Shown piece after piece: positions 16,501 to 62,300 of a stretch of 64,000 nucleotides of DNA. Positions within the stretch are counted from its first letter, which is position 1; each line of letters begins with the position of its first letter. Where the stretch lies: assembly GCF_964355755.1 (NCBI RefSeq), contig NC_092676.1, positions 30,391,871 through 30,455,870 on the forward strand, read 5' to 3'. This DNA is from Antedon mediterranea (taxonomy: Eukaryota; Echinodermata; Crinoidea; Comatulida; Antedonidae). The position numbers were made by a program, and so were the translations under genes. Under the pieces are notes generated by a model. The model saw only the letters and a list, made by a program, of their open reading frames with translations, was not told the DNA's origin and did not search any database.

Positions 16501-17691
16501 TTTAAAATACCAGTCCATGCATAATTTAAAAATAGGCTAGGCAACATGAAACATAATAATAACTCATTCGGCCTGAAATGAAATACCAACAATCATTCAG
16601 ATATGAATGATGGTTGGTATTTCCCATGGCTCTCACGGGCCATCATGGCTACTTATTCTACTCACGCACGACACTAGCTAGTTTTAGTTAGTAGGAGGAG
16701 GGCCTAGCCTAGCGGTAGCCGATCACTCCGGCCGCCGTATCAGTTTAGCGCGATGTTATGCACTCCGGCCGCTATTCAATTCGACTTCCTGTGCAAAGGG
16801 GCCGTTAGTATGGAGCGCCCATATCTACGTTTTCTATACTGTTCAGTGTTATAACAAATTCTTGGTGAATTTAAATGGAACTAGTTGAATATTTATTAGC
16901 AACAATTTTTATAACACTTTATCTTGCCAGTACCCATACTTACTAATTATAGTTAATAACAATATGTAAAATATTAATTTATTTATTTCAAATAATCAAT
17001 TATTATTGATGTTTGTTATAGAATTATTACAGTTAATAACAATATTTACAATATTAATTAATTTATTTCAAATAATCAAATATCCGTCTAATTAATGTAA
17101 CCTGTTAATTAATATATCATTTTTGTACAGTCCAATTTAGAATGATTTTATATTTTAATTTATATATGATAAAAATAATATGACATATAGGGTACATTGC
17201 AATAAATTACATTAATTAATCACATTACAATTAATATACTAGCCTATTATACATTGGATAAAACACAAATTATTTTGTTTTAGCATTAGACCTAATTTAA
17301 AACACTTGCTATGTTGTTGTGATCCTGAAAGAGAAAAAATATACTGTATGATTTATACAAATGTTTATTTTGATTCTCTACAAAAAACGTTTCTCCGTTG
17401 TAAAAGACTCATTGGGCGCTCCATAGCTGCGGCCGGATTGAAGCGCGGCCGGAGTGAAGCGCGGCCGGAGTGATCTGTAATGTATTCAGCCTAGCTAGGC
17501 CTTTAGCTAACTTGTACTTCCTTCTTTTATTACTTACGTCGCATAGTTATTGTTTTAAGGTCATTATTAGCACATATCCATGAACAAGAGTCGCCCAGTA
17601 TATTACCACATTTTAAACATACTATGACTATTGGATATTCTTCTTTTTCACTGATTGTCGAACCCTCCTCCTCTAAAGATCTTCCATCCAT
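13506..17691 (-). CDS. MIS18A: MIS18A-like kinetochore/centromere licensing protein
   Basis: Mis18-alpha homologue. In characterised animals the Mis18 complex primes centromeres for CENP-A deposition. Exons on the minus strand: 17691-17538 (ATG), 16269-16203, 16125-16006, 14101-14005, 13742-13506 (TAA). They join to 224 residues, close to the usual vertebrate length. The Mis18/yippee-like fold is shown by CLKC (Cys25/Cys28) followed by GNILGDS, and by IGRIYQTTPRALD before SYHIGSGEK. The second zinc knuckle reads C-V-C (81-83) rather than the expected CxxC. A coiled-coil-like C-terminus and a basic KRKRTR end follow. The exon 2 donor is AG|GCAAGT, a GC-AG intron; only this choice keeps the frame. 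Intron 1 holds a 774 bp transposon, and intron 3 holds a 69 bp minisatellite split by another transposon. Confidence 0.85.
13857..13985. mobile_element. MITE related to the 5629-5734 element
   Basis: Starts AAAGCTCTGTCTACACTATC and ends near ATAGTGTAGACA. The centre has ATGTGCCCATATATGGACAT. It lies in MIS18A intron 4. Confidence 0.6.
14190..14433. repeat. 69 bp minisatellite, left block (MIS18A intron 3)
   Basis: About 3.5 copies of a 69 bp unit (GTCATCACCATTATTAACAG ... TTTTGTTGATATCATTCCTC). On the minus strand each unit contains the last ~20 nt of MIS18A exon 3 and its donor (AATACAAAG|GTACTG). The array is interrupted at 14434 by a transposon and resumes at 15483. Confidence 0.9.
14434..15482. 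mobile_element. TIR transposon inserted in the 69 bp array
   Basis: Left end CAGGCCCGTAGCCAGG, right end the inverse of CAGGGCCGTAGCCAGG. The repeated host bases CTGTC (14429-14433 and 15483-15487) suggest a 5 bp target duplication, although the host is itself repetitive. Both ends carry runs of G/C next to GAACCCCCCC. No transposase was recognised in the 1049 bp interior, so it is non-autonomous. Confidence 0.8.
15483..16027. repeat. 69 bp minisatellite, right block reaching MIS18A exon 3
   Basis: About eight copies of the same 69 bp unit. The outermost unit merges with the 3' end of exon 3 (16006-16125): the exon terminus and its donor are unit-identical. Each unit therefore presents an additional copy of the exon end plus 5' splice site on the minus strand. 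Confidence 0.9.
16714..17487. mobile_element. Inverted-repeat element, family B (CGGCCGGAGTG ends), copy 1
   Basis: A 774 bp element flanked by the 8 bp duplication AGCCTAGC (16706-16713 and 17488-17495). The left end is GGTAGCCGATCACTCCGGCC; the right end carries two to three GCGGCCGGAGTGAAGC units, then GGAGTGATCTGTAATGTATTC. Just inside each arm is a TATGGAGCGCC core (16809; inverse at 17412-17425). The interior is A/T-rich without a coding frame. It sits in MIS18A intron 1, its target duplication ending 42 bp from the exon 1 donor. Confidence 0.85.
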
Positions 17692-18390
17692 GGTTTCGCG
17701 CGCTGACTGTCAAAATTTGAACTTCAACCTCTGACACATTACGTAATTTTATATGACGTCGATTAAAAGGGGAAATTCTCTTGCTTGATGCATTATGCCA
17801 AAGATAGATCTTTGATTATGCCAATCAATAGGTTTATTCTAATTAATAGGCTAGGCCTAGTAATAACAGATTCAAAATAGCTGATAATAAAATAATAATA
17901 ATATAAAAGACATTGATAACATTTTGAAAACTCATTTTATAAACTACAAAAAATAAATAAAAAGTACTAAAAGTCACGTGATGGTGTGAGGTCAAAAATA
18001 CACAACGTGTTATTGTTATTTGTGTCAACAACATTCTTTTTTTGGTGTCTGTGTATAGAAAGTACTATAAGTTTTAACCTACATCAGACATTTGTAGGTA
18101 TAAAACTACTACCTACTTTTTAAACCAAAACATCAATAAGTAAGACCGGTTATTTACTATAAACATAATTCATTTGATAAATAAGGCGACTACACTGCAC
18201 TGGTTAGGATAGCCTATCTATAATCTAGTGTATCTACAGTATGTATCCCGACGATATGTATACTATACTATTTTACTACACTCTGTATATAACTAGGCCT
18301 ACTATGACGTGTGTGTATTGCAGTGTAGGCTTACTTTACCTCTTCTAGCACAAATGTTGATATTTTTTTTTTCAACAGCTGCTGTCAAAC
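17692..18390. promoter_or_regulatory. Divergent promoter region of MIS18A and MTRES1
   Basis: The two start codons face away from each other across 699 bp, with no other gene between them. Visible motifs include the palindrome ATTACGTAAT near 17739, TGACGTC near 17754 (CRE-like) and the E-box palindrome TCACGTGA near 17974. A pyrimidine tract with CAG just before the MTRES1 ATG (18364-18377) suggests a spliced 5' UTR exon. No TATA box is evident. Transcript starts are not visible from sequence. Confidence 0.5.
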
Positions 18391-19672: not shown

Positions 19673-20189
19673 GGGCAAACCTTACAGGACTCATGACACT
19701 GATTGTACTATCTTTGAAACGTCCCTGGGGATGACCCTGGACAGTAAATCACGTGCTTGTACAAACATGGTATCACGTGATAGTACTTGTAAAACTACAA
19801 CAACACGACCAAATTGGCGAGTAAATCATGTTTTACTTTAAATTAAATTTATACGCTCTTCCACAAGGTCAATTGTTAGTTATACATACAGACTATATTA
19901 AAACAATGATTTTGAACACGTAGGGCATTTCTTTGAATTCTTTCCTATTGTCGTTTTGTGGTAATTTACAGCTTTTTATATGTTTAACAAACGTACATAA
20001 TCAATTGCGTCTGCATCATGCTAGACTACAACTTCCGGTAGTGACGTAATCAGCATATTTTTGGTAATAAAACTTTTTCACTAAGCTAGGGAATCTTCTG
20101 ATATCAATATTCATTAGACCGTACTTTAGTTAGCCAATCAAAATAAACGTATAAACAATTTTGCGGCGATGTTGTTGAGGTAAAATATA

Positions 20190-22730
20190 CTGTGTTTTAC
20201 AATAACCAATTTGGTTAGAGTAAAACACAATGATAAAGAATAGGAAACATTTAATAATATGATAAATGTCAATTACATAGCAATTTATCACTGTGTTTTA
20301 CTATAACCAATTTGGTTAAAGTAAAGCAGAATGATAAAGAATAGGAATTTAATAATATGATAAATGACATTTACATAGCAATTTAGCACTGTGTTTTACT
20401 ATAACCAATTTGGTTAGAGTAAAACACAATGATAAAGAATAGGAAACATTTAATAATATGATATATGACATTCACATAGCAATTTAGCACTGTGTTTTAC
20501 TATAACCAATTTGGTTAGAGTAAAACACAATGATATAGAATAGGAAACATTTAATAATTTGATAAATGACATTTACATAGCAATTTAGCACTGTGTTTTA
20601 CTATAACCAATTTGGTTAAAGTAAAACACAATGATAAAGAATAGGAAACACTTAATAATATGATAAATGACATTTACATAGCAATTAGCACTGTGTTTTA
20701 CTATAACCAATTTGGTTAAAGTAAAGCAGAATGATAAAGAATAGGAATTTAATAATATGATATATGACATTTACATAGCAATTTAGCACTGTGTTTTACT
20801 ATAACCAATTTGGTTAGAGTAAAACACAATGATAAAGAATAGGAAATATTTAATAATAATGATTATTTACATAGCAATTTAGCACTGTGTTTTACTATAA
20901 CCAATTTGGTTATAGTAAAACACAATGATATAGAATAGGAAACATTTTATAATATGATAAATGACATTTACATAGCAATTTATCACTGTGTTTTACTATA
21001 ACCAATTTGGTTAGAGTAAAACACAATGATAAAGAATAGGAAACATTTAATAATAATGATTATTTACATAGCAATTTAGCACTGTGTTTTACTATAACCA
21101 ATTTGGTTAAAGTAAAACACAATGATAAAGAATAGGAAACATTTAATAATATGATATATGACATTCACATAGCAATTTAGCACTGTGTTTTACTATAACC
21201 AATTTGGTTAGAGTAAAACACAATGATATAGAATAGGAAACATTTAATAATTTGATAAATGACATTTACATAGCAATTTAGCACTGTGTTTTACTATAAC
21301 CAATTTGGTTAAAGTAAAACACAATGATAAAGAATAGGAAACACTTAATAATATGATAAATGACATTTACATAGCAATTTAGCACTGTGTTTTACTATAA
21401 CCAATTTGGTTAGAGTAAAACACAATGATAAAGAATAGGAAATATTTAATAATAATGATTATTTACATAGCAATTTAGCACTGTGTTTTACTATAACCAA
21501 TTTGGTTATAGTAAAACACAATGATATAGAATAGGAAACATTTAATAATATGATAAATGACATTTACATAGAAATTTATCACTGTGTTTTACTATAACCA
21601 ATTTGGTTATGGTAAAGCACAATGATATAGAATAGGAAACATTTAATAATATGATAAATGACATTTACATAGCAATTTAGCACTGTGTTTTACTATAACC
21701 AATTTGGTTAAAGTAAAACATAATGATAAAGAATAGGAAACATTTAATAATATGATAAATGACATTTACATAGCAATTTATCACTGTGTTTTACTATAAC
21801 CAATTTGGTTATGGTAAAGCACAATGATATAGAATAGGAAACATTTAATAATAATGATTATTTACATAGCAATTTAGCACCATGTTTTACTATAACCAAT
21901 TTGGTTATGGTAAAGCACAATGATATAGAATAGGAAACATTTAATAATATGATAAATGTCATTACATAGCAATTTAGCACTGTGTTTTACTATAACCAAT
22001 TTGGTTAGAGTAAAACACAATGACAAAGAATAGGAAACATTTAATAATAATGATTATTTACATAGCTAGCAATTTAGCACAATGTTTTACTATAACCAAT
22101 TTGGTTATGGTAAAGCACAATGATATAGAATAGGAAACATTTAATAATATGATAAATGTCATTACATAGCAATTTAGCACTGTGTTTTACTATAACCAAT
22201 TTGGTTAGAGTAAAACACAATGATAAAGAATAGGAAACATTTAATAACATGATAAATGACATTCACATAGAAATTTAGCACTGTGTTTTACTATAACCAA
22301 TTTGATTAGAGTAAAGCACAATGATAAAGAATATGAAACATTTAATAATATGATAAATGACATTTACATAGTAATTTATCACTGTGTTTTACTATAACCA
22401 ATTTGGTTAGAGTAAAACATTTTAACTATGATAAATGATATTTAGCACTGTGCTGGATACAGTAAAACACAAATTAAGAATAGGAAACATATAATAATAT
22501 GATACATTTACATACAAATTTAGTATTGTGTTTTACTATAGCCAATTTGGTTACAGTAAAACACAATGATAATGAAACATTTATTATATGATATTATTTA
22601 CATAGCAAAATATTATATTAAACATATCTTATTATCTAAACGTTATGAAAAGAATAGGATACATATAATGTAATAATATAATAAATACAAGTTACATAGT
22701 TTATCATCTTGTTTTACAGAACCAATTTGG
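20190..22730. repeat. ~100 bp palindrome-bearing satellite, left array (about 25 copies)
   Basis: Each unit contains a ~37 bp near-perfect palindrome, GTGTTTTACTATAACC centred on AATTT then GGTTATAGTAAAACAC, followed by AATGATAAAGAATAGGAAAC and a GATAAATGACATTTACATAG segment. Copies vary mainly at the base following GGTTA (A, T or G). Units near 22400-22780 are increasingly degenerate toward the element centre. Confidence 0.95.
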
Positions 22731-22770
22731 TGACACAGTTAAACACAGTGATAAAGAATAGATACTGTTT

Positions 22771-24857: not shown

Positions 24858-25136
24858 GAACATATCGTCACTCACCACACATTTTTTGTTTTGTATTTCG
24901 AAAGTATTTATTCTAAAGAACAATTGATGCAAACATCAACTGCGTATCTTATTTCATTAATTAATTATATTAATTATAATTTGGCGATTATTCGTCACAC
25001 GAAGAGTCGAATATCGATTCGTCTCGTCATGGGAAGAAAACGTGCATTGCGCACACTGTTTACGCGCCTCAACAATAAACGGCGAATATGCGATTCGTCA
25101 CTTATGGAACGCCGTTTTACACAAGTTTTTGGCGAT

Positions 25137-25345
25137 GATAAAAATTGCGTCGATGATGAAATTGCGTCGATGAAAATTGCATCGACGCAATGTAGATTGC
25201 GTCGATGCAATGTAGATTGCGTCGACGCAATTTACATTGCGTCGATGAAAATTGCATCGATGAAAATTGCGTCGATGAAAATTGCGTCGATGAAAACTGC
25301 ATCGATGAAAATTGCGTCGATGAAAACTGCATCGATGAAAATTGA
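25137..25345. repeat. GCGTCGATGAAAATT minisatellite (one orientation)
   Basis: About 13-14 units of 15 bp alternating GCGTCGATGAAAATT and GCATCGATGAAAACT. GTCGAC and ATCGAT palindromes recur. A repetitive open frame across it is a repeat artefact. Confidence 0.9.
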
Positions 25346-25769
25346 TGTGATGAATTTAATTGATTATGAAAATTCCAAATGGTTTTAATTCAATCAATGA
25401 TGAAAATGACTACTAGTAAAGTAAATGATGATGTTAATAATGATGTTAATAATGTTATTATGTTGCTAAAAATTGACGGTTTCTGAATATTTTGATATGA
25501 TAAACATGTTTACCGCTTGCGCTAGCGCGCGTTATAGACAAGCGCACAGTGATCGCGCACTAAAACAATGTTGAAATATATGCACTGATTAACATTTTAG
25601 TGATTTATTGTCAACACATTTTAGCAATGGATCCATTATTGTCCTTTCGGACACATTATATCTTCTAGCTAATTGCTTCCGTTAATCCACCAGTTCAGTA
25701 CATAAAATCCAGATGTCCAGCATCCATGACATCATATTCAAATCATACCGGCAGGGAGATCGCAATTTT

Positions 25770-26005
25770 CATCGATGAAAACTGCATCGATGAAAATTAT
25801 TTTTTTTTTCATCGATGCAGTTTTCATCGATGCAGTTTTCATCGACGCAATTTTCATCGACACAATTTTCATCACATTAACGCAATTTTCATTACATCGA
25901 CGCAATTTTCATCGACGCAATGTTCATCACATCATTACATCAATACTATATTCATCGACGCAATTTTCATCACATCGACGCAATTTTCATTGCATCATCG
26001 ACGCG
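25770..26005. repeat. GCGTCGATGAAAATT minisatellite (inverse orientation)
   Basis: The same 15 bp unit as at 25137-25345 but on the other strand (TTTTCATCGACGCAA). The two arrays form an inverted pair around a ~420 bp spacer at 25346-25769. Confidence 0.9.
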
Positions 26006-26404
26006 ATTTTATCATCGCCTAAACTGGCATTCCATACTAATTGCGTGTGATCTGATTGGTGTATTATAAATAAATTCATCGCGATGAATTTTTCAGTAGA
26101 TGTAATGAGACAGTTCAGTAGATGTAATGACAGTTAATTTAATTGTTCTGCTCTTTTTGTACAAATCTATACTACTTTATATTATGGATTTTGTAGTACT
26201 GTTAAAATTATTAAATCTCTGGAAGTGTGTTTTACGAGTATGTCCGCAAATTTATGCGTTTACGGTTTTAAAATGTGAGTTTTAAATAGCGAACATGATC
26301 TTGTTAGGTGCACTACGCACGCAGTATTCCAAAATGTCTTACTAATTGGGAGAAAATCATATTGTATCATATCATATTATATCCATTCTTTAAATTCATA
26401 TTCT

Positions 26405-27830
26405 TTATCCAAAACTAAATTGGTATAGTAAAACACAGTGCTAGCAATTTATCATATTATTAAATGTTTCATATTCTTTATCATTGTGTTTTACTCTAAT
26501 CAAATTGGTATAGTAAAACACAGTGCTAAATTGCTATGTGAATGTCATTTATCATATTTTTAAATGTTTCCTATTCTTTATCATTGTGCTTTACCATAAC
26601 CAAATTGGTTATAGTAAAACACAGTGCTAAATTGCTATGTAAATGTTATATATCATATTATTAAATTCCTATTCTTTATCATTGTGTTTTACTCTAACCA
26701 AATTGGTTATAGTAAAACACAGTGATAAATTGCTATGTAAATGTAATTTATCATATTATTAAATGTTTCCTATTCTTTATCATTGTGTTTTACTCTAACC
26801 AAATTGGTTATAGTAAAACACAGTGATAAATTGCTATGTAAATGTAATTTATCATGTTAGTAAATGTTTCTTATTCTTTATCGTTGAGTTTTACTCTAAT
26901 CAAATTGGTTATAGTAAAACACAGTGCTAAATTGCTATGTAAATGTTATATATCATATTATTAAATGTTTCCTATTCTTTATCATTGTGTTTTACTCTAA
27001 TCTGATTGGTTATAGTAAAACACAGTGCTAAATTGCTATGTGAATGTCATTTATCATGTTATTAAATGTTTCCTATTCTTTATCATTGTGCTTTACTCTA
27101 ACCAAATTGGTTATAGTAAAACACAGTGCTAAATTGCTATGTAAATGTCATTTATCATGTTATTAAATGTTTCTTATTCTTTATCATTGTGTTTTACTCT
27201 AACCAAATTGGTTATAGTAAAACACAGTGATAAATTGCTATGTAAATGTAATTTATCATATTATTAAATGTTTCCTATTCTTTATCATTGTGTTTTACTC
27301 TAACCAAATTGGTTATAGTAAAACACAGTGATAAATTGCTATGTAAATGTAATTTATCATGTTATTAAATGTTTCCTATTCTTTATCGTTGTGTTTTACT
27401 CTAATCAAATTGGTTATAGTAAAACACAGTGCTAAATTGCTATGTAAATGTTATATATCATATTATTAAATGTTTCCTATTCTTTATCATTGTGTTTTAC
27501 TCTAATCTGATTGGTTATAGTAAAACACAGTGCTAAATTGCTATGTGAATGTCATTTATCATGTTATTAAATGTTTCCTATTCTTTATCATTGTGCTTTA
27601 CTCTAACCAAATTGGTTATAGTAAAACACAGTGCTAAATTGCTAAATGTCATTTATCATGTTATTAAATGTTTCTTATTCCATATCATTGTGTTTTACTC
27701 TAACCAAATTGGTTATAGTAAAACACAGTGCTAAATTGCTATGTAAATGTAATTTATCATATTATTAAATGTTTCCTATTCTTTATCATTGTGTTTTACT
27801 CTAACCAAATTGGTTATAATTTATTTAATT
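26405..27830. repeat. ~100 bp palindrome-bearing satellite, right array (about 14 copies)
   Basis: The same unit as the 20190-22730 array in inverse orientation (ACTCTAACCAAATTGGTTAT then AGTAAAACACAGTG). Copies are more homogeneous than on the left and show higher-order repetition; for example, a ~400 bp block containing the CTAATCTGATTGG variant recurs near 26995 and 27505. Confidence 0.95.
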
Positions 27831-31897: not shown

Positions 31898-34800
31898 ATG
31901 GCGGCCTCCGTCTGTCGGACGTGTGCTTCACAGTTTCGTTTTAAAGCCTTTAATTTTGTACAAGTAAGCAAAAGTATCCAAAGAAGGTTAAGTACACCAA
32001 TTTCGGTAAGTAGGTTTCTTCCCTCACTTATTTTAAAATAATATATAGGCCTTGGCACCTCTAGTCTAAGGCTAGGCCCTAGCCCCTTAAAACTAGCTAG
32101 CCTAAGCCTAGCTAGGTAGGAGGCTAGGTAGAGTAGGAGGAACCTCTATCCTCACTCAGAACGGACCTAGCCTAGATGAAGATACTAGGCCTAGAGCTGA
32201 GTGAGCAAAGGGTAGGTAACAAAGTGCGAGGGCATGCGAGGCAAGTCAGAAATTTATGCGAGGCATCGTTTTACCATCATCAAAAAATGCGAGGCATCAT
32301 TTTATCATTTCTCAAAATTGCAAGGCAGGAAAGGGTGTGTAGAAAGCGACGACCTCGAATTGAACGACCCGGGCGACCTCGAATTGGACGACCTAGAATT
32401 GGACGACCCATAACACGAAACCGACGACCCCTATAATAGCCTAGCCTAGCCTAGCCTAGGCCTAAGTATGGTATAACATCCCGAAGCCGAACATAACCAA
32501 AGATCTTTAAACCATACCTTATATAATACTTGCAAGCAAGCAATTGATTGAAAAAATACAGAAATATCGCCATTTGATACTGAATGTGTCGACACGAACA
32601 AACGAACAGATATGGAACGCCAAGAGTGCATCATTAAAACTGCATTCGACTCGATTAGCACACGAAATATCATAAACATGGCAAACCAGGCCCTTTTTCA
32701 GCGGCAGGTAAGGTTTGACCATGGAGGTACTCCATGGTTTGACCAGCTCCATGGTTTGGTAAAAATATTTTTATACCTCCATGGTTTGACCGTATACAAT
32801 GCATGTGTGAAATGTAAAGCTTTCTTATGGCCCTCCCCATGCAGGATTAGGCCAAGTTGAGCTGCCGACAAGTTGAGGCGCCGCCAAAAACGTTATTTTC
32901 TATGAAACGCCAAATGCTTACTTTCGCCGGTGCTCGTTTCTATTTAATAGAAGTTCTATTTATATTAATTATTAGATATAACGATGTATATTCCAAAGTT
33001 TATATATCACGGTTTTTAGTATATATTATTAAATATTATAATTAAAGAGAAATAATTATGAATATCTGACTTGTAGATTCCAAAATATAAGGCCTAAAAC
33101 ATGACCGAAAATGATCGTTTTTAGCCAAAAATGACGTAAACATGTTGCCCCCTCAGGCGGCAGTTGAAGTAAAATAATTGCATAAAATCACCGTTTTTTA
33201 GTAAAATATTTTGTGTTTTGTAAAATTCAATAAAATATGATATTAAAAGATAGTAAATAAAAAATAATAATTATTTAACCTCATTCGAAGAATATCAATA
33301 CTCTATTAGTCCTGAGAGACAACGTGATTTTACGTGGTAGGCATACACGCGAGAAAAATATTATGGAGTGCACTGCATTTTTACCTTGAATGATTAAAAA
33401 CAATTAAATTATTAAATATGACTACTTTCCTTTGCTGTTTCAAACCAACAAAATTGTAGTATGTAATTATTATTTATTTTCATGACACAATAAACCTAAA
33501 GACCATGAACTTATGTAGGGCCTACAAATCACTACGCGAAATGTCGTAAAAGACGCACTGGCCGTTTCATAGAAATTACCGGCGGCTCAATTTGTCGGCG
33601 GCCCAACCGGTCATATCCTCCCATGCACATGTTACGCTGCTTGGTAGGCCTATAGTGTTCGTTATAAGAAGACGAGATGTAATTATACGTCCATGGTTTA
33701 ACCATGTATTGTATAATATTTATTTCTTTTTAATTTATTTTTAATATGTCGAATGCAGTTTTAATTATGCACTCTTGGCGTTCCATATATTTTCGTTTGT
33801 TCGTGTCGACACAATCAGTATCAAATGGCGATATTTCTGTATTTTTTCAATCAATTGCTTGCTTGCGAGTATTATATAATAAGGTATAGTTTAAAGATCT
33901 TTGGCTATGTTCGGCTTCGGGATGTTATACCACACTTAGGCCTAGGCTAGGCTAGGCTATAGGGGTCGTCGGTTTCGTGTTATGGGTCGTTCAATTCGAG
34001 GTCGTTCAATTCGAGGTCGCCCGGGTCGTTGGGGTCGTCCAATTCGAGGTCGTCGCTTTCTACACACCCAGGCAGGAAATCACCGAAATTGAAGTAGCCT
34101 AGGCCTAGGCCCGCTAGGCTAGTTTCCTTTTCGCTGTGGCTAAAGATACGGTACCGTATTCTAACTTCTGTTTACTAAAGATACGGTAAAATTGCATTAC
34201 GTCATAACCAGCCAATGGGGTGCTGGTACGTGTGTGACGTCATCGTATAAGGACTTTGTGGATTTCATATCGCGAAAACCATGGAGGTATGGCGAAAACA
34301 GTGATCAACCGCATTTTCTTTATGCTTTATTTATCGCTATTATCGCCGTCGTGTGTGACAAAAACTAAATGTAGCCTACGTCTGTTATTATTATTGAAAA
34401 GCCATGTTGATTTTAATTCTAGAATAGAGAAAACCGTTTTAAAAGAGGCCTAGGCCTACTTACTACGTACTATGTATAACCTCATTATATGAGTTTGTTT
34501 GTGAAGGGAAAGCGATTCCAGGCTGTGGCCAGCTGCATATGTGTGCGCTGATTTCTGTGACTCGTCAGCCCTGGGGCTACACTGCTGTCTAAATCATAGT
34601 ATTTAAGGGCTCCTTTATTGTCCGCATTTGCTTGTTGTTTATGGTCACCATCGTAAACAAAGTTTTAAAAAAATATAGGCCTAAATAGGCCATTTGGAAT
34701 AAAAATAAAACCCTCATCTGCAGCGCAGCACACACATCCACGCAGCCTGGCGCCGCCGATAGGAATTCTCTACATATATAAATACAACCAACAACAGACG

Positions 34801-46800: not shown

Positions 46801-49800
46801 ATAAATACTACCTATCAAAAACGAAAAAACCATCAGGCCCAGTGTGTGTGTGTAATTTATATTGAATTTTTCGTTTTATTTCGTCTAATATGTAGGCCCT
46901 AGTCCTAACCGTACTGTGATGTTTTATTTATCTTGCCATTATAATATTATACAAATAATGAATGTTTATGAGTGTAATGGTACAAATAATGGCACGAGGT
47001 GAATGATGAAAGGTTATATCAACGAGGCGATGAGCCGAGTTGATATAACCTTTCATCATTCACCAAGTGCCATTATTTGTACCATTACACGAATACAAAA
47101 CATTCATTATTTGTTTTATATAACATCTAGACGTTTTTTTTTCGTACACAAAAATGTTTCAAAAAGTACTATTTAACGATCGTTAAATAGTACTTTTTGA
47201 AACATTTTTGTGTACGAAAAAAAAAACGTCTCGCGGATGAAAAAAAATCTAGTACACAAATTATCCTATGATATGGCTCTGTACTGTGAAATACAACAGC
47301 GCCACCTGTCGTCTGGTCTCAGTTTCATTTGTAAACACCACCGCGAGATATGCAACAGCAGCAGATATTTGTGTACGATTTGGACATTATGTACTAATTT
47401 CATTCAAAAAGGCATTTAAATTAGCTTTAGATCGTTTTTAGGATTTTGATTAATTAATGGGGACATCCCTACAAGACGTGGAATTGTTGGAAAAACCATA
47501 ATTAGCTTAGATAAGTTCCAATTGTCTGTCGAAGTTTTGCCTTTCAGCCAAGCTAGTACTACTAGGCTACTAGGCCTAGGGTAGCCTAGGCCATGCTAGT
47601 ATTAGGCTAGGCCTAGCCTAGGCGTTTTAGCCTTGCTAGGCCTAGGATTGTTTGGTCGTTTGTTGACATAATTAACACAAAAGTAAGGTGTGTTTACGAA
47701 ATCCATATAAATATAACATTTAATATAAAATTATTAAAAACCAAATGTTACTGTTTTTAATCAATGTGTGTGAATGAAATGTAGTAAGCTTTGGTTAGGG
47801 CTACCTTTTATTTGATTCAAATAACTAGAATTTATATAGATGTTATATAAAACAAATAATGAATGTTTTGTATTCGTGTAATGGTACAAATAATGGCACT
47901 TGGTGAATGATGAAAGGTTATATCAACTCGGCTCATCGCCTCGTTGATATAACCTTTCATCATTCACCTCGTGCCATTATTTGTACCATTACACTCATAA
48001 ACATTCATTATTTGTATACTATAGTAGCACTTTTTGCGTTCCATAGTTTGTAGAGGCCGAGTTGACGGATTAGTTTTTGGCCGAGTTGACGTGAGGCCGA
48101 GTTGACGTGAGGCCGAGTTGACGTGTGGCCGTGTTGACTTGGGGCCGACTTGACTTGGGCCGACTTGACGTGGGGCCGACTTGACTTTGGCCGAGATGGT
48201 TTAGGGCCGAGACGGTTTAGGGCCGAGTTGGATCGAATTCGTCCAAACTATAGAGGGTGATATAACATTTTGAAAAAATACATCAAACCATAGAGGGCGC
48301 TGTTAAATAAAAAATATTGGAATCTATAATTCGTAAACATGGGTGAGCTTGTCCGGAGCGGAGTGGAAATTATTTTTTTTTTTATGTTTATCCATGGGGA
48401 AGAATTGTATTTTATCGGGAGACTCGCGCGATTTAATCACGATAACTTGGAGGTCAGTCTGAACCTTCAGTTGTGTAACATAGTTTAATACATGCGGTTG
48501 AGTCCAACAACTAGGCTATTTTTCATTTGAAAAATTAAATTAAAATTTATAATTTCTTTTTCACCAATTTTTCAGATGAGAATTTTTTCTGGTATTCAAC
48601 CAACAGGTGTGCCACACATTGGAAATTATCTAGGTGCTATTAAACAATGGAAAGATTTACAGGAACAACATAGGCATGTGATGTATAGTATAGTTGATTT
48701 ACATTCTATTGCATTACCACAAGATCCAAAACAACTAAAGACCAGTATCTTGACGACGACTGCCATATTGCTTGCTTGTGGTATCGATCCAGAACGTAGT
48801 ATTCTATTCCAGCAATCGGCTGTAAGTCAAATCTTTTAATCGTGTTGTTTGGAGTTAACTAATATTCTATATTATTTATAGCCTTTTAAACTTTTTAGTT
48901 GGCGGATAACTCCTTGTTATTGTATGGGATCAATATTTTTTTCTGTATTATTATTCTTTCTTTCTCGCTATTTTTGTGCACCTCCTTTTTTGAAAGACGT
49001 CTGAGTTGCGCAACGTGACTTACGCGCTTTTATATGATTGCTCATAGATTAAAAACCAAGCGTAATTTTTTTTTGATACTTGGTGAAAATTTAAGTCATA
49101 TCAAGGTCAAACTTTCTACGGATTAAAAATGGCATGTTTCACAAGAAGTGAAATTTTAAATGAAATTTTACGCGTAAGGTGCGCACGGAGTATGAAAAAC
49201 ATTTTTCTCTTGAATTATATTTTTCAAGCCTTTCTTAGTAATTTTGAAAACAATGTAGACCTTTTCCACTTTAAATAACGCCATACGAACACGTTGAATT
49301 AGACAATTCGCGTGCGTTTTGAATGAAAAAGCTTAAAAAATCGTCAAAATAATGTCTTTTTTAAAACAGTCATAGTTTCTAAAGTAAACCGTGAACTGTT
49401 TATTTTTATTACAAAATCTAGAAGTTGATGAGTTGTAGATATCGGATCATGCATCAATAAGGCTAAACAAACATTGTGACATCATCGTATGGCCACCCGA
49501 ATATAAAATATAGAATCTTTGACTCTTTCGTTATTGCTCATAACATTCAATGGAGCGCATCCCGCTTATCTGTATTCTTTTTTCTCCGAGATTTTAATAT
49601 TGTCTAGGTCAATCAACTTTCGCATGAGATAAAAATATTTTAATTTTTATGACGTCATTATGCCTAACAATTTAAATTACGTGGGTCATTAATTTCATCT
49701 TTACAGTAAATTTTAATCTGTAATAGCTAGTAAGAATAAAATGTGATAATCACGATTAAAACATTTTCTGGAAGCTATTGGATTGTAGATATGAATTCAT

Positions 49801-51374
49801 GTAAACATTTTGCCAATCGGATATTGTGACATCATCATATGGCCACTTGACTTTAAAAGTTGTATTTTCATCTTTTGCGTCATAGTTCATTACATTTAGA
49901 AGAGCGCGCATCAATATTTCACGTATTCAAATTTCTTCTACACGTTAATATTTTGTTGTTGAGATAATTTCCTTCCGAAATTGCTACCTTTGCGTTTCAT
50001 TTTGATACCGTCGCCATGTTAAAAATTGGAATAAATAGCAAGTCCCGTAATTTCACCTATCTACTCTGTATGTGCTATGTATACAGATTATACTGTGTAT
50101 ACTATATGACACAAAATAACAGAATTCAGCAATAAAAACATATCATATTCTTCAGTTCAGGTCATAATGCCATAATCTTTTTCTGTGTGCAATATTCCAA
50201 TGTATGACGTGCACGTGGCGTTTGTGGTGCGGATAACTAACTCGTCTAAGTGACGAGTTTCATGTCTAGTTAAAATTGTTTTTACAGGTAAAAGAGCATG
50301 CAGAGTTAGCCTGGGTGCTTGGGTGTAAAATTACACTGGCTAGACTGAATTCTTTTACACAGTGGAAGGTAAATGCAAGGAGCATTATTTTGTTTTTACT
50401 ATTGTTGAGGACGCTGTGCATTCAAAAAGTCCTTACATGAAGTTGCTGCTTTTGTGGGTGAATGCATCTTTTAATTAATGTATTATATTATTATAATTAG
50501 CTTTACCTTTATTATTGTGTAATTTACCTTCGGGTTTTATTTGTCTAGGCTAAAGTTGGTTCAGACAAGAAAAAAGCATGTGTTGGTTTGTTCACCTATC
50601 CAGTATTACAAAGTGCTGATATTTTATTGTACAAGTAAGTTAATGTTAGAATATCATTTGTACTTTAGTACCCATATCACCTGCTTATACTCTGAGACTG
50701 ACAATCTTGAAATCTGTGACAGGTCAACACATGTTCCTGTTGGTGATGACCAAAAACAGCACTTGGAAATGGCTCAAGAAGTTGCCAGGATATTTAACAA
50801 CAACTATGGTGAATTCTTTCCAATTCCAAAGCCAATTTTTGGTAAGTTTTAGTTTGTTGATCCAATTGGTAATGGTGATTTATATCGTTCTAAAAAATGA
50901 AGACTTTAAATATTTTTTTTTTCAGGTAATGTTACAAAAGTTAAAAGTTTAAGAGATCCAACGATTAAGATGAGTAAATCTGACGACCAGATGTTATCAC
51001 GTATTGAACTGTTAGACACTCATGACCAAATAGTAAAGAAATTAAAAAAAGCTGTTACAGATTTTACGTCTGAAGTGACATATGACCCACAGTCTCGGCC
51101 AGGTGTATCAAATATTGTAATGATACATTCCGCTGTGAGTGGAAAAACAGTTGAAGACATTTGCAATGAAGTGAAAGGACTTGAAACAGCTGAATATAAG
51201 TTAGTTGTTGCAGAGGCTGTCAATGCATTTATTGAACCAATAAGATACAAAGTATCATCATTATTACAAGACAAAGAGTACTTGCAAGATGTTTTAAAAA
51301 CTGGAGCTGATAAAGCCCGTGAAATTGCAGAGAAAAACTACAATGATGTAAAACAACTTGTGGGTTTTATTTGA
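31898..51374 (+). CDS. WARS2: Mitochondrial tryptophanyl-tRNA synthetase
   Basis: Class I aminoacyl-tRNA synthetase charging mitochondrial tRNA-Trp. Exons: 31898-32005, 48576-48821, 50288-50368, 50549-50634, 50723-50841, 50926-51374; 362 residues, all phases compatible, close to the usual length (about 360). Exon 1 encodes only a 36-residue basic presequence (MAASVCRTC ... RRLSTPIS). It joins in phase 0 to exon 2, [20 protein letters not shown], with the HIGH-like HIGN at about residues 50-53. The later KMSKS loop is at about 228-232, followed by [13 protein letters not shown] and the terminal KQLVGFI. Intron 1 is 16.6 kb and almost entirely nested transposons. If exon 1 were skipped, exon 2 itself starts with ATG, which could give a product lacking the presequence. 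Exons 4-6 have a decayed duplicate at 57.5 kb. Confidence 0.9.
32333..34069. mobile_element. Inverted-repeat element, family F, nested in H
   Basis: A 1737 bp element with a 10 bp target duplication AGGCAGGAAA (32323-32332, 34070-34079) that interrupts the left array of H. Termini are GGGTGTGTAGAAAGCGACGA and its inverse. Arms of ~500 bp start with CGACCTCGAATTGGA units of ~15 bp, then TTGCAAGCAAGCAATTGATT, then the core TATGGAACGCCAAGAGTGCA (32611; inverse near 33768-33788). The interior contains CCATGGTTTGACC repeats and element G. Confidence 0.85.
32850..33612. mobile_element. Inverted-repeat element, family G, nested in F
   Basis: Left arm AGTTGAGCTGCCGACAAGTT then GAGGCGCCG; right arm the inverse (CGGCGGCTCAATTTGTCGGC). 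Both arms continue into a CTATGAAACG core (32900 and inverse near 33566). No coding frame. The ends are not delimited by a clean target duplication. Confidence 0.6.
34132..34945. mobile_element. Mutator-like TIR element A, copy 1
   Basis: An 814 bp element with ends CGCTGTGGCTAAAGATACGG and the inverse (TTTAGCCACGGCG) and an exact 9 bp duplication TTTCCTTTT (34123-34131, 34946-34954). The subterminal part contains GGTACCGTA palindromes and GTGTGTGACGTCATCG. No transposase frame; non-autonomous. A 9 bp target duplication is typical of the Mutator superfamily, but superfamily placement is inference. Confidence 0.88.
35055..35804. mobile_element. Mutator-like TIR element A2
   Basis: A 750 bp element with ends CGCCGTGGTTAGGATTCCGG and inverse, and a 9 bp duplication AACAATAAA (35046-35054, 35805-35813). 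It shares only the outer CGCYGTGG(C/T)TA with element A, so it is a second family of the same group. The ends continue into GCACCGGAACTCAACTGCCC and GCATGCGCAATAGCGTG. It interrupts the left arm of D. Confidence 0.88.
36949..39440 (-). mobile_element. 5'-truncated non-LTR retrotransposon (jockey/CR1 group) with reverse transcriptase
   Basis: The main frame at 38791-37193 (532 residues) carries fingers and palm motifs ([36 protein letters not shown]), the catalytic SFADDTTLF, and the LGI..NLNW and C-terminal segments of ORF2. Upstream, the same protein continues in other frames (39054-38722 and 39435-39130), separated by a frameshift near 38790 and further lesions. The endonuclease domain is missing, so the copy is dead. 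The 3' end closes with AAATAAATG, a short spacer and (AATTG)n repeats at 36949-36967. It lies in element H within WARS2 intron 1. Confidence 0.9.
40165..40470. repeat. CGGCCTCACGTCAACT array, left arm of E
   Basis: About 17 units of 16-18 bp, with variants CTCAAGTCAACG and CTCACGTCAACT. The inverse array is at about 48048-48235 with roughly ten units. Confidence 0.92.
41075..43378 (+). mobile_element. Non-LTR retrotransposon fragment (jockey/CR1 group), split by a Helitron
   Basis: The C-terminal part of a reverse transcriptase ORF2 reads from about 41093 to 41544 ([38 protein letters not shown]). It resumes in the same frame at 42952-43189 ([35 protein letters not shown]). The 3' region contains GGCACGCCTTATGGCGAC and ends in an AATAAAATAAAATAAAT tail. 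The catalytic YADD region is absent; the copy is 5'-truncated. A 1407 bp Helitron separates the two parts. Confidence 0.88.
41545..42951 (-). mobile_element. Canonical non-autonomous Helitron
   Basis: Read on the minus strand, it starts TCTATATTATAAGTGAGAGA and ends with the hairpin ACCCGCCC-TG-GGGCGGGT (41556-41573), seven bases (ATAATTG) and CTAG. It sits between A and T with no target duplication. These are the defining Helitron hallmarks. Removing 41545-42951 restores an uninterrupted LINE frame across the junction, which confirms both ends to the base. Near the 5' end are TTTG/TCTG repeats. No Rep/helicase frame is present. Confidence 0.9.
43380..44219. other. Interior of element E, nothing recognised
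   Basis: A/T-rich sequence with short open frames lacking recognisable motifs. Part of the unclassified body of element E. Confidence 0.4.
44220..44878 (+). mobile_element. Non-autonomous Helentron-type (Helitron2-like) element
   Basis: The 5' end ACCTCCGCCAAGGAGGTA is matched by a subterminal inverse GGCGGAGGT at 44845-44853. After it come a hairpin CACTC-TCG-GAGTG, GCTTT and the terminal CTAG. The flanks are T and T. Asymmetric inverted repeats with the 3' copy internal to a terminal hairpin plus CTAG are characteristic of Helentrons. A GTTTGTTTGTTTG tract lies near the 5' end. 659 bp, no coding frame. Confidence 0.75.
45127..45810. mobile_element. MITE with TAAAGGGGCAT ends
   Basis: Left TAAAGGGGCATCCCCACAG then TCCTGTTCCGTTTTGC; right the inverse (GGAACAGGTGTGAATGCCCC then TTTA). 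Subterminal CGTTCCG/CGGAACGG repeats are frequent. 684 bp, no coding frame. The TA at each end may be part of the target site. Confidence 0.75.
46210..46720 (-). mobile_element. LINE 3' fragment with (TATCT)n tail
   Basis: A 117-residue minus-strand frame (46704-46351) with [34 protein letters not shown] and SNRF-like ends resembles the C-terminus of LINE ORF2 proteins. It is followed on the minus strand by a 3' region with GAGGATCAATAAAAGTTATC and a TTATC/TATCT repeat tail at 46212-46235. It belongs to a LINE family distinct from the two others here. Confidence 0.75.
46948..48018. mobile_element. Hairpin-in-hairpin element inside E
   Basis: ~180 bp terminal inverted repeats begin TATACAAATAATGAATG. 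Each arm itself contains a ~119 bp palindrome (46972-47090 and 47876-47995; GTGTAATGGTACAAATAATG ... inverse, loop near AGGCGATGAGCC). A separate 103 bp palindrome lies at 47129-47231. TA-like ends are possible. No coding frame. Confidence 0.8.
47129..47231. repeat. 103 bp near-perfect palindrome centred on CGATCG
   Basis: Arms of ~51 bp (AGACG, T-run, CGTACACAAAAATGTTTC, AAAAAGTACTATTTAA) meet at CGATCG. The only difference is one base in the length of the T/A runs (9 against 10). It has strong cruciform potential. Confidence 0.92.
48901..50269 (+). mobile_element. Probable Helentron-type element in WARS2 intron 2
   Basis: The 3' end has a hairpin AACTCGTC-TAAGT-GACGAGTT (about 50239-50259), then TCATGT and CTAG followed by TT. 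The proposed 5' end GGCGGATAACTCCTTG follows a TT. The segment GCGGATAACT recurs just before the 3' hairpin, but in direct rather than inverse orientation, so the 5' end is uncertain. The interior contains recurrent GTGACATCATCGTATGGCCA (twice) and CGCGTAAGG-like motifs but no protein. Confidence 0.5.
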
Positions 51375-52772: not shown

Positions 52773-55700
52773 ATGGATACCAAATTGATCCTGGTTGTTT
52801 TTGGAATGTTTGCGGTAATCAATGCAGGTATGTTGTGTTAATCAACCATTGCGGCTTCCATTCTCTTATATGACTACTGTATAAACATGGTCAAACTATA
52901 CTGTATATGCTAAATAGGTAGGAAGAAATATAAGAACAAATGCATTGATGTAACCCTAACCCCAACTATACTGTATATGCTAAATAGGTAGGAAGAAATA
53001 TAAGAACAAATGCATTGATGTAACCCTAACCCTAACTATACTGTATATGCTAAATAGGTAGGAAGAAATATAAGAACAAATGCATTGATGTAACCCTAAC
53101 CCTAACTATACTGTATATGCTAAATAGGTAGGAAGAAATATAAGAACAAATGCATTGATGTTATGTTTCCTTTCCTTATATTTTTTAATGTCGCTGTACA
53201 AAAGGTATTTATAAAGTTATTGGTATTTAAGATAACCTTCTTGGTATTTACAGCCCAATGGACACCCTGGTTTGACCGAGACAATCCATCCGGTACTGGA
53301 GACTGGGAAACTGTGGGCAGTTTGTACAGCGTAAGTGAATTGTCTACGTCTACTTGGTTCTAATACTGTACCATCCTTGCTAATACTTATACAGTATTAG
53401 AAATGTCACACCACACTGTCACAGAGTATGTACATTGTAAAAATAAGTATAAATATAATGTTTTATGTATATTATTATAAGTATAAATATAATGCTGTAT
53501 GTTGTTGATTTCAGGAGAATCCAAATCAAATGTGTCAGAATCCAACAGGCATTCAATGTCAAACTACTAGTGGTGCACATTACACTTCTACTGGAGAGGT
53601 TGTCAGTTGTAGCGCTAGTACTGGTCTTGTTTGTAGGAATGCTGACCAACCTGACAACTATTGTCAGGATTACAGAGTTCGCTTCCTATGTTCAAGTTAG
53701 TAACCCTATAGCTTAACGTAAAGCTTCCTATGTCTAGGTTAGTACTCCTATAGCTTAACGTAAAGCTTCCTATGTCCAGGTTAGTACTCCTATAGCTTAA
53801 CGTAAAGCTTCCTATGTCCAGGTTAGTACTCCTATAGCTTAACGTAAAGCTTCCTATGTCCAGGTTAGTACTCCTATAGCTTAACGTAAAGCTTCCTATG
53901 TCCAGGTTAGTACTCCTATAGCTTAACGTAAAGCTTCCTATGTCCAGGTTAGTACTCCTATAGCTTAACGTAAAGCTTCCTATGTCCAGGTTATTAGTAC
54001 TCCTATAGCTTAACGTAAAGCTTCCTATGTCCAGGTTAGTACCCCTATAGCTTAACGTAAAGCTTCCTATGTCCAGGTTAGTACTCCTATAGCTTAACGT
54101 AAAGCTTCCTATGTCTAGGTTAGTACTCCTATAGCTTAACGTAAAGCTTCCTTTGTTCAGGTTAGTACTCCTATAGCTTAATGTAAAGCTTCCTTTGTTC
54201 AGGTTAGTACTCCTATAGCTTAACGTAAAGCTTCCTATGTCCAGGTTCGTACTCCTATAGCTTAACGTAAAGCTTCCTATGTCCAGGTTAGTACTCTTAT
54301 AGCTTAACGTAAAGCTTCCTATGTCCAGGTTAGTACTCCTATAGCTTAACGTAAAGCTTCCTATGTCCAGGTTAGTACTCCTATAGCTTAACGTAAAGCT
54401 TCCTATGTCCAGGTTAGTACTCCTATAGCTTAACGTAAAGCTTCCTATGTCCAGGTTATTAGTACTCCTATAGCTTAACGTAAAGCTTCCTATGTCCAGG
54501 TTAGTACCCCTATAGCTTAACGTAAAGCTTCCTATGTCCAGGTTAGTACTCCTATAGCTTAACGTAAAGCTTCCTATGTCCAGGTTAGTACTCCTATAGC
54601 TTAACGTAAAGCTTCCTATGTCCAGGTTTAGTACTCCTATAGCTTAACGTAAAGCTTCCTATGTCTAGGTTAGTACTCCTATAGCTTAACGTAAAGCTTC
54701 CTATGTCCAGGTTAGTACTCCTATAGCTTAACGTAAAGCTTCCTATGTCCTGGTTAATTCTACTATAGCTTAACGTAAAGCTTCCTATGTCCAGGTTAGT
54801 ACTCCTATAGCTTAACGTAAAGCTTCCTATGTCCTGGTTAGTACTCCTATAGCTTAACGTAAAGCTTCCTATGTCCAGGTTAGTACTCCTATAGCTTAAC
54901 GTAAAACTTCCTATGCTCAAGTTAGTACTCCTATAGCTTAACGTAAAGCTTCCTATGTCCAGGTTAGTACTCCTATAGCTTAACGTAAAGCTTCCTATGT
55001 TCAGGTTAGTACCTCTATAACTTAACGTAAAGCTTCCTATGTCCAGGTTAGTACTCCTATAGCTTAACGTAAAGCTTCCTATGTCCAGGTTAGTACTCCT
55101 ATAGCTTAACGTAAAGCTTCCTATGTCCAGGTTAGTACTCCTATAGCTTAACGTAAAGCTTCCTATGTCCAGGTTAGTACTCCTATAGCTTAACGTAAAG
55201 CTTCCTATGTCCAGGTTAGTACTCCTATAGCTTAACGTAAAGCTTCCTATGTCCAGGTTAGTACTCCTATATAGCTTAACGTAAAGCTTCCTGATGGTGG
55301 TATTAATAGTACTTAAAATAATTCTATACTGTGTGTTATTTACAGAATACCAATGGACACCCTGGTTTGATCGAGACAATCCATCCGGTAGTGGAGACTG
55401 GGAAACTGTGAGCAGTTTATACAACGTAAGTGAATTTAGAACTAATGTTCTTTGCCTGTCGTGTTTATATATTATATTCATGAAATGTATTATTTGAAAC
55501 TCGTACTTACTTTTTTAATAGCTTATTCATTTGTTTTATTATTGATTGAAAGAAAGAAAATAAATGTTTACGTTGAATTGAATTGAATTGTCTATATCTA
55601 CTTGGTTCTAATACCATCCTTGCTAATACTTAATTAAAAAGGTCACAGAATATGTACATTGTAAACATAAGTATAAATATAATGCTGTATGTTGTTGATT

Positions 55701-59115: not shown

Positions 59116-59365
59116 AAAGGATGGAATATTGCCACGTGGTTGGAGAAATTGTAAGTTTGAATTGTGAATCATTGTACTGTACATTTTTTGTTATTTTTAA
59201 ACAATTGTTGAGGAGGATATAGGCCTAGTATTAATTTCATGTCTGGGAAACATGCATTTGGCAATTCTCACCTTTAGTAGAAAAGGCAGCTACAGTAGCA
59301 ACTAAAACAAGTTTTTTATTTATGAACGTACGTTGGGGGCGTAACGTAACCGTAAACAAAACAAA

Positions 59366-62300
59366 ATGGCAACTGAAGGCAAGGAACGTAGATGTTGGGT
59401 TATTGTAAACAGGCAAGATTTAAAAGGTATTGTATTGTAATACTGACTGTCATCTGGCTGTGGTAATGTAGGGTAACGCTACAATAAATAATAAATATTA
59501 TCCAGCAGCACAAAAAAGAACGGATCTCCAAAAGAACATAGGCTAGGCCAGGTGGTAGCCGATCACTCCGGCCGCGCTTCACTCCGGCCGCCGTATCAGT
59601 TTAGCGCGATGGTATGCACTCCGGCCGCTATTAAATTCGACTTCCTGTGCAAAGGGGCCGTTAGTATGGAGCGCCCATATCTACGACGCGTTTTCTATAC
59701 TATTCAGTGTTATAACATGGAGTATTACTCCATGGTTATAACAAATTCTTGGTGAATTTAAATGGAACTAGGCCTAGTTGAATATTTATTAGCAACAATT
59801 TTACTTTTTTCATTAACAATAACATTCAAAGAAGTTGGAACTGCTTTTTCTTTCAAACTAAACTTAACTTAATTAAATTCAATAATAAAATAATAATCAA
59901 ATACCCGTCTAATTAATGCTTGAATAACAATATTTAATTTCTTTCTATGTACATTTATTTTTCGCTGTGGCTAAAGATACGGTACCGTATTCTAACTTCT
60001 GTTTACTAAAGGTACGGTAAAATTGCATTACGTCATAATCAGCCAATGGGGTGTTGGTACGTGTGTGACGTCATCGTATAAGGACTTTTGATTTTTTTTT
60101 TCATATCGCGTCTGTTGTATCAAAGAATATATATCACAAGAATGAGTATTCCGCGATTATTGCATGAGAAATTTGTAACAGAGAGCTCCAGTGAGTGATG
60201 CCCGCCCTCATAAGGGCGGATGTATACATACTAAATAAGACTTGATTTAATAGATATTATACATGTCACATTAAATAGAATTATGATAATAGTTTTTGCA
60301 ATTGTAAACTATTTTATAATACATATTTATTAACAAACTAGTGTACGTTCACTTTTACAGACAATTATTTACTAACATGCTAAGTTAGTTCACAAAAAGG
60401 CCTAACACAGCAACACCAAAAATCAATGAATCGTTACTCAGCACGGCCTATTCTTTACCATTGTCGTGTACTACTCTACGCCCGGTAAAATAAGTATTGT
60501 TTTTATGATATAAATTAGTATAAAATACATGTTATTAATAGGACAAAATGTTAAATGTTATTAACATTTATTTGTTTTACCAGAAACAAGTTAAATATAG
60601 GAATATTATTAAACAATCCTTCGTGAAAACGCGTAAACACCAACACGCCCGGTCACGCTATCGTAGCGCCCGGTTAATAAAGCAAACTGTTTATACGGCA
60701 GTTTTTACTAAATAAATTGCATAAAACGAACAATTAAATATCCAAATAGTATTTAACATGATGTTGGCATGTAGTTGATAACATTTTTTATCATGAAAAT
60801 ACTACCGGTGGTCTAGCCTTTGATTATTGAAACCGTCACAAAAAGTTGTATACATCCCAGATACATCCACACTTATGGCGGCGCCCTACCACATGGACAA
60901 TATTACTGTTACAGGGAAAATCGCGGAATACTCATTCTTGTGATATATATTCTTTGGTTGTATGTAGAGAATTCCTGTCGGCGGTGCCAGGCTGCATGAG
61001 TGTGTGTGCGCTGATGAGGGTTTTATTTTTATTGCAAATGGCCTTTAGGCCTATATTTTTTATTAAACTTTGTTTACAATGGTGACCATAAACAACAAGC
61101 AAGTGCGGACAATAAAGGGGCCCTCAAATACTATGATTTTTAGACAGTAGCCCCAGGTCTGAGTCACAGAAATCAGCGCACACATGCAGCTGGCCCCAGC
61201 CTGGCATCGCTTTCCCTACACAAACAAACTCATAATAATGAGGTTAGAGTACGTAGTAAGTAGGCCTAGGCCTCTTTTGAAACGGTTTTTTGTATTCTAG
61301 AATTAAAATCAACATGTTTTGGCTTTTCAATAATAATAATAATAACAGACGTAGGCTACATTTAGTTTTTGTCACACACGACAGCAATAATAGCGATAAA
61401 TGAAGCATAAAGAAAATGCGGTTGATCACTGTTTTCGCGATATGAAAAAATCCAAAGTCCTTATACGATGACGTCACACACGTACGTATTGGCTGGTTAT
61501 GACGTAATGCAATTTTACCGTACCTTTAGTAAACAGAAGTTAGAATACGGTACCGTATCTTTAGCCACGGCGTTTATTTTTATAGCTTTACATTTATTAA
61601 CATTAAACATTTGTTAAAACCCTTATTTTTATAACACTTTATCTTGCCAGTACCCATACTTACTAATTATAGTTGATAACAATATGTAAAATATTAATTT
61701 ATTTATTTCAAATAATCAATTATTATTGATGTTTGTTATAGTTAATAATAACAATATTTACAATATTAATTTATTTCAAATAATCAAATATCCGTGTAAT
61801 TAATGTTACCTGGAATTGTATCAAGAATTAATATATTATTTTTGTACAGTCCAATTTACAATAATTTTATATTTTAATTTATATATGATAAACATAATAT
61901 TATGACATATGGTACATTGCAATAAATTACATTAATTAATCACATTACAATTATACTAGCCTATTACATTTAATTGGATACAACACATAAATTATTTTGT
62001 TTTAGCATTAGACCTAATTTAAAACACTTGTGATGTTGTTGTGATCCTGAAAGAGAAAAAATATACTGTATGATTACAAATGTTTATTTTGATTCTCTAC
62101 AAAAAAACGTGTCTCGGTTGTAAAAGACTCATTGGGCGCTCCATAGCTGCGGCCGGAATGAATCGCGGCCGGAATGAATCGCGGCCGGATTGAAGCGCGG
62201 CCGGAGTGATCTGTATTCGGCCAGGTTGGTCACACGACAGATAAGAGTGCGAAACGGAACTAGCGCCGAGTGATGTGCATTTCCAATTTTGGCCGGCTAC

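Follow-up and report, generated by a model that had tools for sequence, protein, structure and literature searches.

A short core shared by the tips and inner arms of unlike non-coding mobile elements in the genome of Antedon mediterranea

Transposon ends are usually considered private to a family and its enzyme. The present study concerns a short motif, TATGGARCGCC (hereafter the core), that recurs at the tips or within the arms of inverted-repeat elements of the crinoid Antedon mediterranea, and it takes as its starting point a window of 64,000 nucleotides (C7:30391871-30455870, the whole stretch of DNA analysed) in a genome of 354 Mb and 18 contigs. Several described systems share part of the layout seen there. 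In Tm1, a Mutator/Foldback family of root-knot nematodes, asymmetric 7-bp tips accompany tandem units of ~14 bp in varying number, the inverted repeats contain a conserved motif close to their inner end, and target-site duplications (TSDs) are 8-10 bp long; according to the accessible sections of that account, most copies are non-autonomous, and copies resembling miniature inverted-repeat transposable elements (MITEs) occur without the inner motif (PMC3169594). For Galileo, the available excerpts describe transposase-binding sites in long, repetitive terminal inverted repeats, recurring in tandem units, the nearest of them lying ~70 bp from the tip (PMC3688188). IS3EU families, in the accessible portion of their description, invariably end in TA..TA, and their TSDs are usually 6 bp long (PMC10045372). 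Tetris, a Foldback element of Drosophila virilis, is described in its available text as carrying tandem repeats in its inverted repeats and 8-10-bp TSDs, with no autonomous copy found (PMC4079207).

What is unusual in A. mediterranea is the occurrence of one site across families with 6-, 8- and 10-bp TSDs, as the tip in some and as an inner motif in others. The core sits in nearly twenty (an approximate number) otherwise dissimilar types of non-coding mobile DNA. If one mismatch is allowed, it is found 14 times in the window, the GC content of which is 25-41% in 2-kb steps, against 0.79 expected, and none of 100 shuffles reached 14. Nine window cores are exact: 16809 (+), 17415-17425 (-), 25103 (+), 32611 (+), 33777-33787 (-), 35888 (+), 36316-36326 (-), 59665 (+) and 62135-62145 (-). 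Genome-wide, 3632 exact cores contrast with 34 for a control made of the same letters read backwards. The cores also tend to face each other: among neighbouring pairs less than 2.5 kb apart, taken from the first 100 cores of contig C1, 27 of 35 point inward, four are ++, two are -- and two point outward. The core counts and the mostly inward pairs sustain the observation made in the sequence-only reading, the coordinates of which are correct to about one base. A chance origin of the core, one of the outcomes that would have been fatal to that reading, is ruled out by the window shuffles and the genome-wide reversed-pattern controls.

The core is longer than had first been noted. A GC step at positions 18-19 extends it to TATGGARCGCC-N6-GC, a 19-bp form in which the AAAAGNGC previously recorded after the core can be recognised as the end of N6-GC. 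This step, which played no part in site selection, is present at 2507 of the 3632 exact cores and at none of the reversed control; with at most one mismatch, the 19-bp form occurs 6638 times in the genome, compared with 53 for its reversed control. Because large families dominate genome-wide site counts, clusters were counted as well. When grouped by their 40-bp flanks, 108 exact cores in retrieved loci (one more, near a locus end, was skipped) form 17 clusters that share little else, and seven of these clusters hold a single site. The figure of 17 approximates the number of families, named here T1, T2 or by letters, given that single linkage joined T1 with E and that the two arms of B form two clusters. 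N6-GC is found in nine of the 17 cluster representatives (P ~2e-7, at 1/16 per site), a count that omits f4868 and f5135, which were taken from the N6-GC list, and F, whose cores are inexact. It is absent from both B arms, from G and K, from two J-type sites and from L074 and L083. Flanks common to the families were not seen: in 253 pairs of 23 chosen arms, similarity exceeded a z of 4.5 in two inner and six outer comparisons, three of the latter involving arms of the same or of sister families and the rest being K-H, H-D and f4868-H.

In two families the core is the transposon tip itself. T1 (the core followed by GTTTACG; 252 sites) has an exact 6-bp TSD adjoining the core in seven of nine copies, and T2 (the core followed by TCCTCTGC) has one in all three, namely two copies nested in L020, which were paired by their TSDs, and one at L114. 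Together, 6-bp TSDs abut the core in 10 of the 12 copies examined. Among 18 T1 ends, the 14 bases beyond the tip vary at every position (A at -9, in 15 of 18, comes closest to fixation), and positions 1-12 are identical, an inner identity that is partly by construction because the copies were picked by exact core or 18-bp matches. The T2 insertion at L114 has its unbroken site in L003, L005, L014 and L016. The TSDs adjoining the core in T1 and T2, together with these empty sites, establish that the core is the tip in both families. Both ends terminate in TA..TA, within the tip TATGGAACGCC in T1 and T2 and within the tip TACGGTGGCC in family C. TSDs were read by eye and then by script in T1, T2, C, D and B, and by eye in H.

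Elsewhere the core is an inner part of composite inverted repeats, lying ~59-374 bp inside the outer tips in B, C, D and H. Family C, with the outer tip TACGGTGGCC, has a 6-bp TSD in six of eight copies and a core 374 bp inside (L006). Family D begins with GGGTGTGTAG; 11 of its 13 copies, the window copy among them, are flanked by a 10-bp TSD, and the core is 282 bp inside (L010). Family B has the tips GGTAGCC and GAATACA and an exact 8-bp TSD in eight of 12 copies (two others match over 9 and 14 bases, and two show none), and in its window copies the core is 62-111 bp inside. The inner sides of the B arms are unlike; outside the core just the array unit is common to them (z 4.8), and TATGGAGCGCCCA is kept in both. 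Family H, with the tips GGATTACGG and GGAGTATGG, has an 8-bp TSD in three of three copies and a core ~59 bp inside (L100). Tandem units and the inner motif occur together within the composite inverted repeats of B, H and D (H shows just two units), and among these three, asymmetric 7-bp tips are seen in B only. The E family is a mosaic. Among the lettered families, tips were resolved in B, C, D and H, and not in E, F, G, K or J.

In the window, the core is confirmed in both arms of B (both copies), D, E, F and G, where it had been reported, with imperfect copies in both arms of F and in the right arm of G. The elements concerned are as follows.

16714-17487, no strand assigned: element B, copy 1, with tips GGTAGCC / GAATACA, a CGGCCGGAGTG-type array, cores at 16809-16819 (+) and 17415-17425 (-), and the 8-bp TSD AGCCTAGC
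25103-26036, no strand assigned: element G, with an exact core at 25103-25113 (+), a core with one mismatch at 26026-26036 (-), and GATGAAAATTGCGTC arrays inside the cores
32333-34069, no strand assigned: element D, with the tip GGGTGTGTAGAAAGCGACGACC, a CGACCTCGAATTGGA array, cores at 32611-32621 (+) and 33777-33787 (-), and the 10-bp TSD AGGCAGGAAA
32901-32911, plus strand: core variant TATGAAACGCC of family K, inside D
35805-36948, no strand assigned: element E, left arm truncated at 35805, with cores at 35888-35898 (+) and 36316-36326 (-) and N6-GC after both
40150-48231, no strand assigned: the arms of F, with CGGCCTCACGTCAACT arrays and imperfect cores at 40475-40485 (+, TATGGAACACA, two mismatches) and 48035-48045 (-, TATGGAACGCA, one mismatch)
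59554-62218, no strand assigned: element B, copy 2, with cores at 59665-59675 (+) and 62135-62145 (-) and the 8-bp TSD GGCCAGGT
62321-62401, plus strand: two one-mismatch cores just outside B copy 2, TATGAAACGCC (62321) and TATGGCGCGCC (62391, family J)

B copy 1 carries a small insertion at its right tip, which was therefore set by eye; a script run with the tip five bases short returned no TSD. B is often found in GGCCTAG-like sequence (the window copies, L007, L101, L102 and L108), a possible target preference. The insertion site of the window D stands uninterrupted in L003, L005, L016 and L081. Elements are also nested, as K, a second core-bearing family, sits within D copies both at 32901-32911 of the window and in L037, L038 and L039. 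By eye, no 6-bp TSD was seen next to the cores of G and no TSD was found for F; in the F stretch, two of the 28 open frames were scanned against Pfam without a match, and the rest were inspected by eye without a transposase being recognised. G lies between two opposite arrays of the same 101-bp repeat (20189-22419 and 26446-27818), the arms of which reach at most 393 bp at 95%. Farther along, at 53681-55292, a 42-bp repeat is present 38 times, and much of the array reads through in one frame (repeating NLDIGSFTLSYRST). Ordinary gene fragments are also present, at 50910-51374 a class I tRNA synthetase (Trp/Tyr type) and at 9676-10749 immunoglobulin-like domains below the Pfam cut-off.

The core is read here, with middling confidence, as a putative protein-binding site at the ends of non-autonomous DNA transposons, forming the tip of T1 and T2 and lying subterminally elsewhere. 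This reading draws on the inner sites of Galileo, the plan of Tm1 and the ends and TSDs of IS3EU, as given in the accessible parts of those descriptions. Because no autonomous element or transposase is tied to the core, we can only infer that it binds a protein, that it helps in transposition and which protein is concerned. In T1 and T2, the enzyme would cut at the outer edge of the core and insert the element at a target cut with a 6-bp stagger. For the composite elements (B, C, D, H and probably E, F and K), the cut would fall at the family-specific tip farther out, and the core, subterminal and on the inner side of the short repeats, could give the transposase or a helper protein one more place to dock. 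Our best guess for the enzyme of T1, T2 and C, from their 6-bp TSDs and TA..TA ends, is one of the IS3EU/GingerRoot kind, and for that of B, H and D, from 8- and 10-bp TSDs and G-rich tips, one of the Mutator/Foldback type, as in Mutator-like elements (MULEs). The suggestion of the sequence-only reading that a single transposase recognises the site stands in one respect: since the core is the tip in T1 and T2, and a genuine part of the ends, a transposase-recognised site is a reasonable reading. One transposase for all is not supported, because TSDs of 6, 8 and 10 bp and unlike outer tips mean that a single enzyme with one TSD length cannot cover all families. The second suggestion made there, a single superfamily, is one possibility, since no autonomous member turned up that would speak for or against it.

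A search for an autonomous member between cores found none tied to the core in the loci examined. Pfam profiles match the genome 36 times for PF10551 (MULE), 77 times for PF24764 (rva_4), 11 times each for PF20700 (Mutator) and PF12762 (IS1595/Merlin), and three times for PF18758 (KDZ). The rva_4 domain is presumably that of IS3EU, which is a guess. Twelve of its 77 places were examined in part, with most ends unreached, and the only cores at one mismatch or fewer were those at L063:950, in the left flank stretch of one copy of the rva_4 group R1, and in L094, a stretch that does not align to R1. The arms of R1 are long and inverted; the left one has a one-mismatch core, TATGGGGCGCC, as its inner end and the right one does not, and the outer ends were not reached. 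A second group, R2, has other tips, and 8.5 kb of the third, R3, which stop short of its right end, contain no core even when one mismatch is allowed. Two places with rva_4-bearing sequence of at least ~8 kb (L087-L090; C1:1863300-1871800 and C4:14265350-14273850, right end not reached) are 99.9% identical, which points to recent copying. A GGGGCGACTTTGCGAT-type array (L059:1-420; L003:1173-1581 and 5141-5323) is found next to an rva_4 gene copy and also next to E elements. Merlin and KDZ transposons make 8-bp TSDs; by eye, the nearest of their matches to the listed elements, C4:14096972, is ~5 kb outside a D tip. The long-span D pairs (L037-L039) hold additional nested cores, and seven unpaired families extended by ~3 kb show no inward-facing partner core within two mismatches. 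The carriers inspected by eye have no gene of their own.

Several observations weigh against a protein-binding role. By eye, none of the transposase matches falls within a core-bearing element among those listed; the element lists are not exhaustive, and the five profiles cover neither hAT nor piggyBac, P or other transposases, so an autonomous copy may have been missed. At 15 distinct MULE places checked of the 36, nine of them with just ~1.5 kb on each side, a one-mismatch core is present at two: L023/L035, where it lies in an H-like right arm with no matching left arm, and L032, where a C-like core outside the gene faces away. The GC step is missing from B, G and K, and the sequence adjoining the core in B and H does not clearly match between the arms in inverted orientation. 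In eight D elements chosen by their outer tip, the 19 bp are unchanged in 10 of 16 arms; of the remaining six, four are without the region and two are cut by deletions that start inside the core. The unchanged D cores, which count in favour, are weak evidence of constraint because the copies are young. In six C elements chosen by tip, the core is kept in five of 12 arms, and a 94-bp C copy (L045, C8:4915450-4915750) has exact tips and a 6-bp TSD and no core; copies of this kind may reflect deletions after insertion. Finally, the MITE-like Tm1 copies without the motif, as the accessible account presents them, argue that movement may not depend on a motif of this sort.

Common descent is a possible, if unlikely, alternative to a binding site. 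The families would derive from one ancestral transposon with the core as its inverted-repeat tip; new tips and arrays would have been added repeatedly outside it by end extension or recombination, leaving the core partly as a relic, and TSD length would have drifted with the enzyme. The make-up of C fits such a history, with an outer TACGG tip, an inner TATGG core and a 6-bp TSD like that of T1 and T2, and H has TAYGG four bases inside its tip. A faint inner likeness is visible by eye (CTGCCT in C, T2 and L067; GTTT.AC in T1 and G) and is not significant when scored. However, the flanks are nearly unlike between families, the survival of the core alone would itself need constraint, and the spread from 6- to 8- and 10-bp TSDs would require large changes of the enzyme. 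It is rather doubtful that the 19-bp site is instead a common module, acting as the cleavage tip for an enzyme with 6-bp TSDs and as a subterminal dock for enzymes with 8- or 10-bp TSDs, several transposase lineages making use of the same DNA-binding domain or helper protein.

An improbable explanation is that the core binds a host protein or starts transcription at both ends, and that unrelated families acquired it as an aid to expression or tolerance. Its presence in families with different TSD lengths and the inward direction of most neighbouring pairs would agree with a host-factor or promoter site, but a promoter site need not form the very tip, as the core does in T1 and T2, and there is no gene in the inspected carriers.

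There is very little to commend nested insertion, in which a core-tipped element would lie within each larger element, or the related idea, named in the sequence-only reading as its possible undoing, of a separate short repeat having landed in each of the families. Families tipped by the core are real and can enter other elements, as the T2 copy L114 in an E arm shows. Yet no direct 6-bp repeat abuts the core in any of the 10 composite elements checked (B, C, D, E, F and H). Moreover, the arms of D, E, F and one C copy of the two remain symmetrical beyond the core: over the next ten bases outward, inverted copies agree at 8-10 of 10 positions; the other C copy agrees at 4 of 10, H at 6 and B at 5. 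Nested insertion is rejected for the families tested on the absent direct repeats and the inverted outer bases. The slightest chance is left to a gene remnant, with the core read as ATG GAR CGC (Met-Glu-Arg) or TAT GGA ACG CC (Tyr-Gly-Thr-Pro, as in integrases): both readings exist, and an integrase-like stretch beside L074 has CATGGAACACC, but the arms written out (mostly chosen by exact core) show no synonymous codons for those residues, and a coding remnant is rejected since nothing common to the arms of different families continues past the core.

A site found in nearly twenty contexts that are little alike, as a tip or farther in and with three TSD lengths, offers a natural test of how inverted repeats gain tips and arrays. 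The same core allows one to ask whether different transposases can share a docking site. A single 19-bp pattern is also a simple handle with which to find and sort the non-autonomous elements of this genome.

Among described systems, a tip with a short tandem array and a conserved inner motif is known already for elements of the Foldback type (Tm1; compare Galileo). The sequence-only reading knew of no described family with this layout, yet Tm1 (PMC3169594) and Galileo (PMC3688188) have comparable layouts in the accessible parts of their accounts. Tetris differs in its repeat unit of ~220 bp, and the available text on it notes no motif common to unrelated families (PMC4079207). In limited searches, made without subscription papers, Repbase or Dfam, no description was found of one inner motif that is shared by unrelated families with TSDs of different length and is a tip elsewhere, which is a weak sign that none exists; matches to the core letters in the open-access literature are not about transposons, judging by titles and the openings of abstracts. 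Galileo and the P superfamily have 7-bp TSDs. The likeness to Galileo, as its available excerpts portray it, lies in long, internally repetitive inverted repeats with inner sites, the core site here being putative; Galileo has a THAP transposase of the P superfamily, whereas the TSDs here are of 6, 8 and 10 bp, no 7-bp TSD was seen and a P-type gene was not searched for. T1, T2 and C resemble IS3EU and GingerRoot, in so far as the accessible descriptions go, in their TA..TA termini and 6-bp TSDs (T1 7/9, T2 3/3, C 6/8); those families are defined by their transposase, whereas the rva_4 integrase-core matches here were not found between cores. The 8-10-bp TSD that serves as the Mutator/Foldback criterion is seen in B (8/12), H (3/3, by eye) and D (11/13). 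Family B follows the plan of Tm1 closely, as far as the accessible account of Tm1 sets it out, with its 7-bp tips GGTAGCC and GAATACA, 16-bp units, inner core and 8-bp TSD. A MULE gene was found in Tm1, whereas none is tied to the core at the 15 of 36 MULE places examined here. Tm1, as described there, is one family with its own inner motif; in A. mediterranea, one motif is common to many families, with TSDs of 6, 8 and 10 bp.

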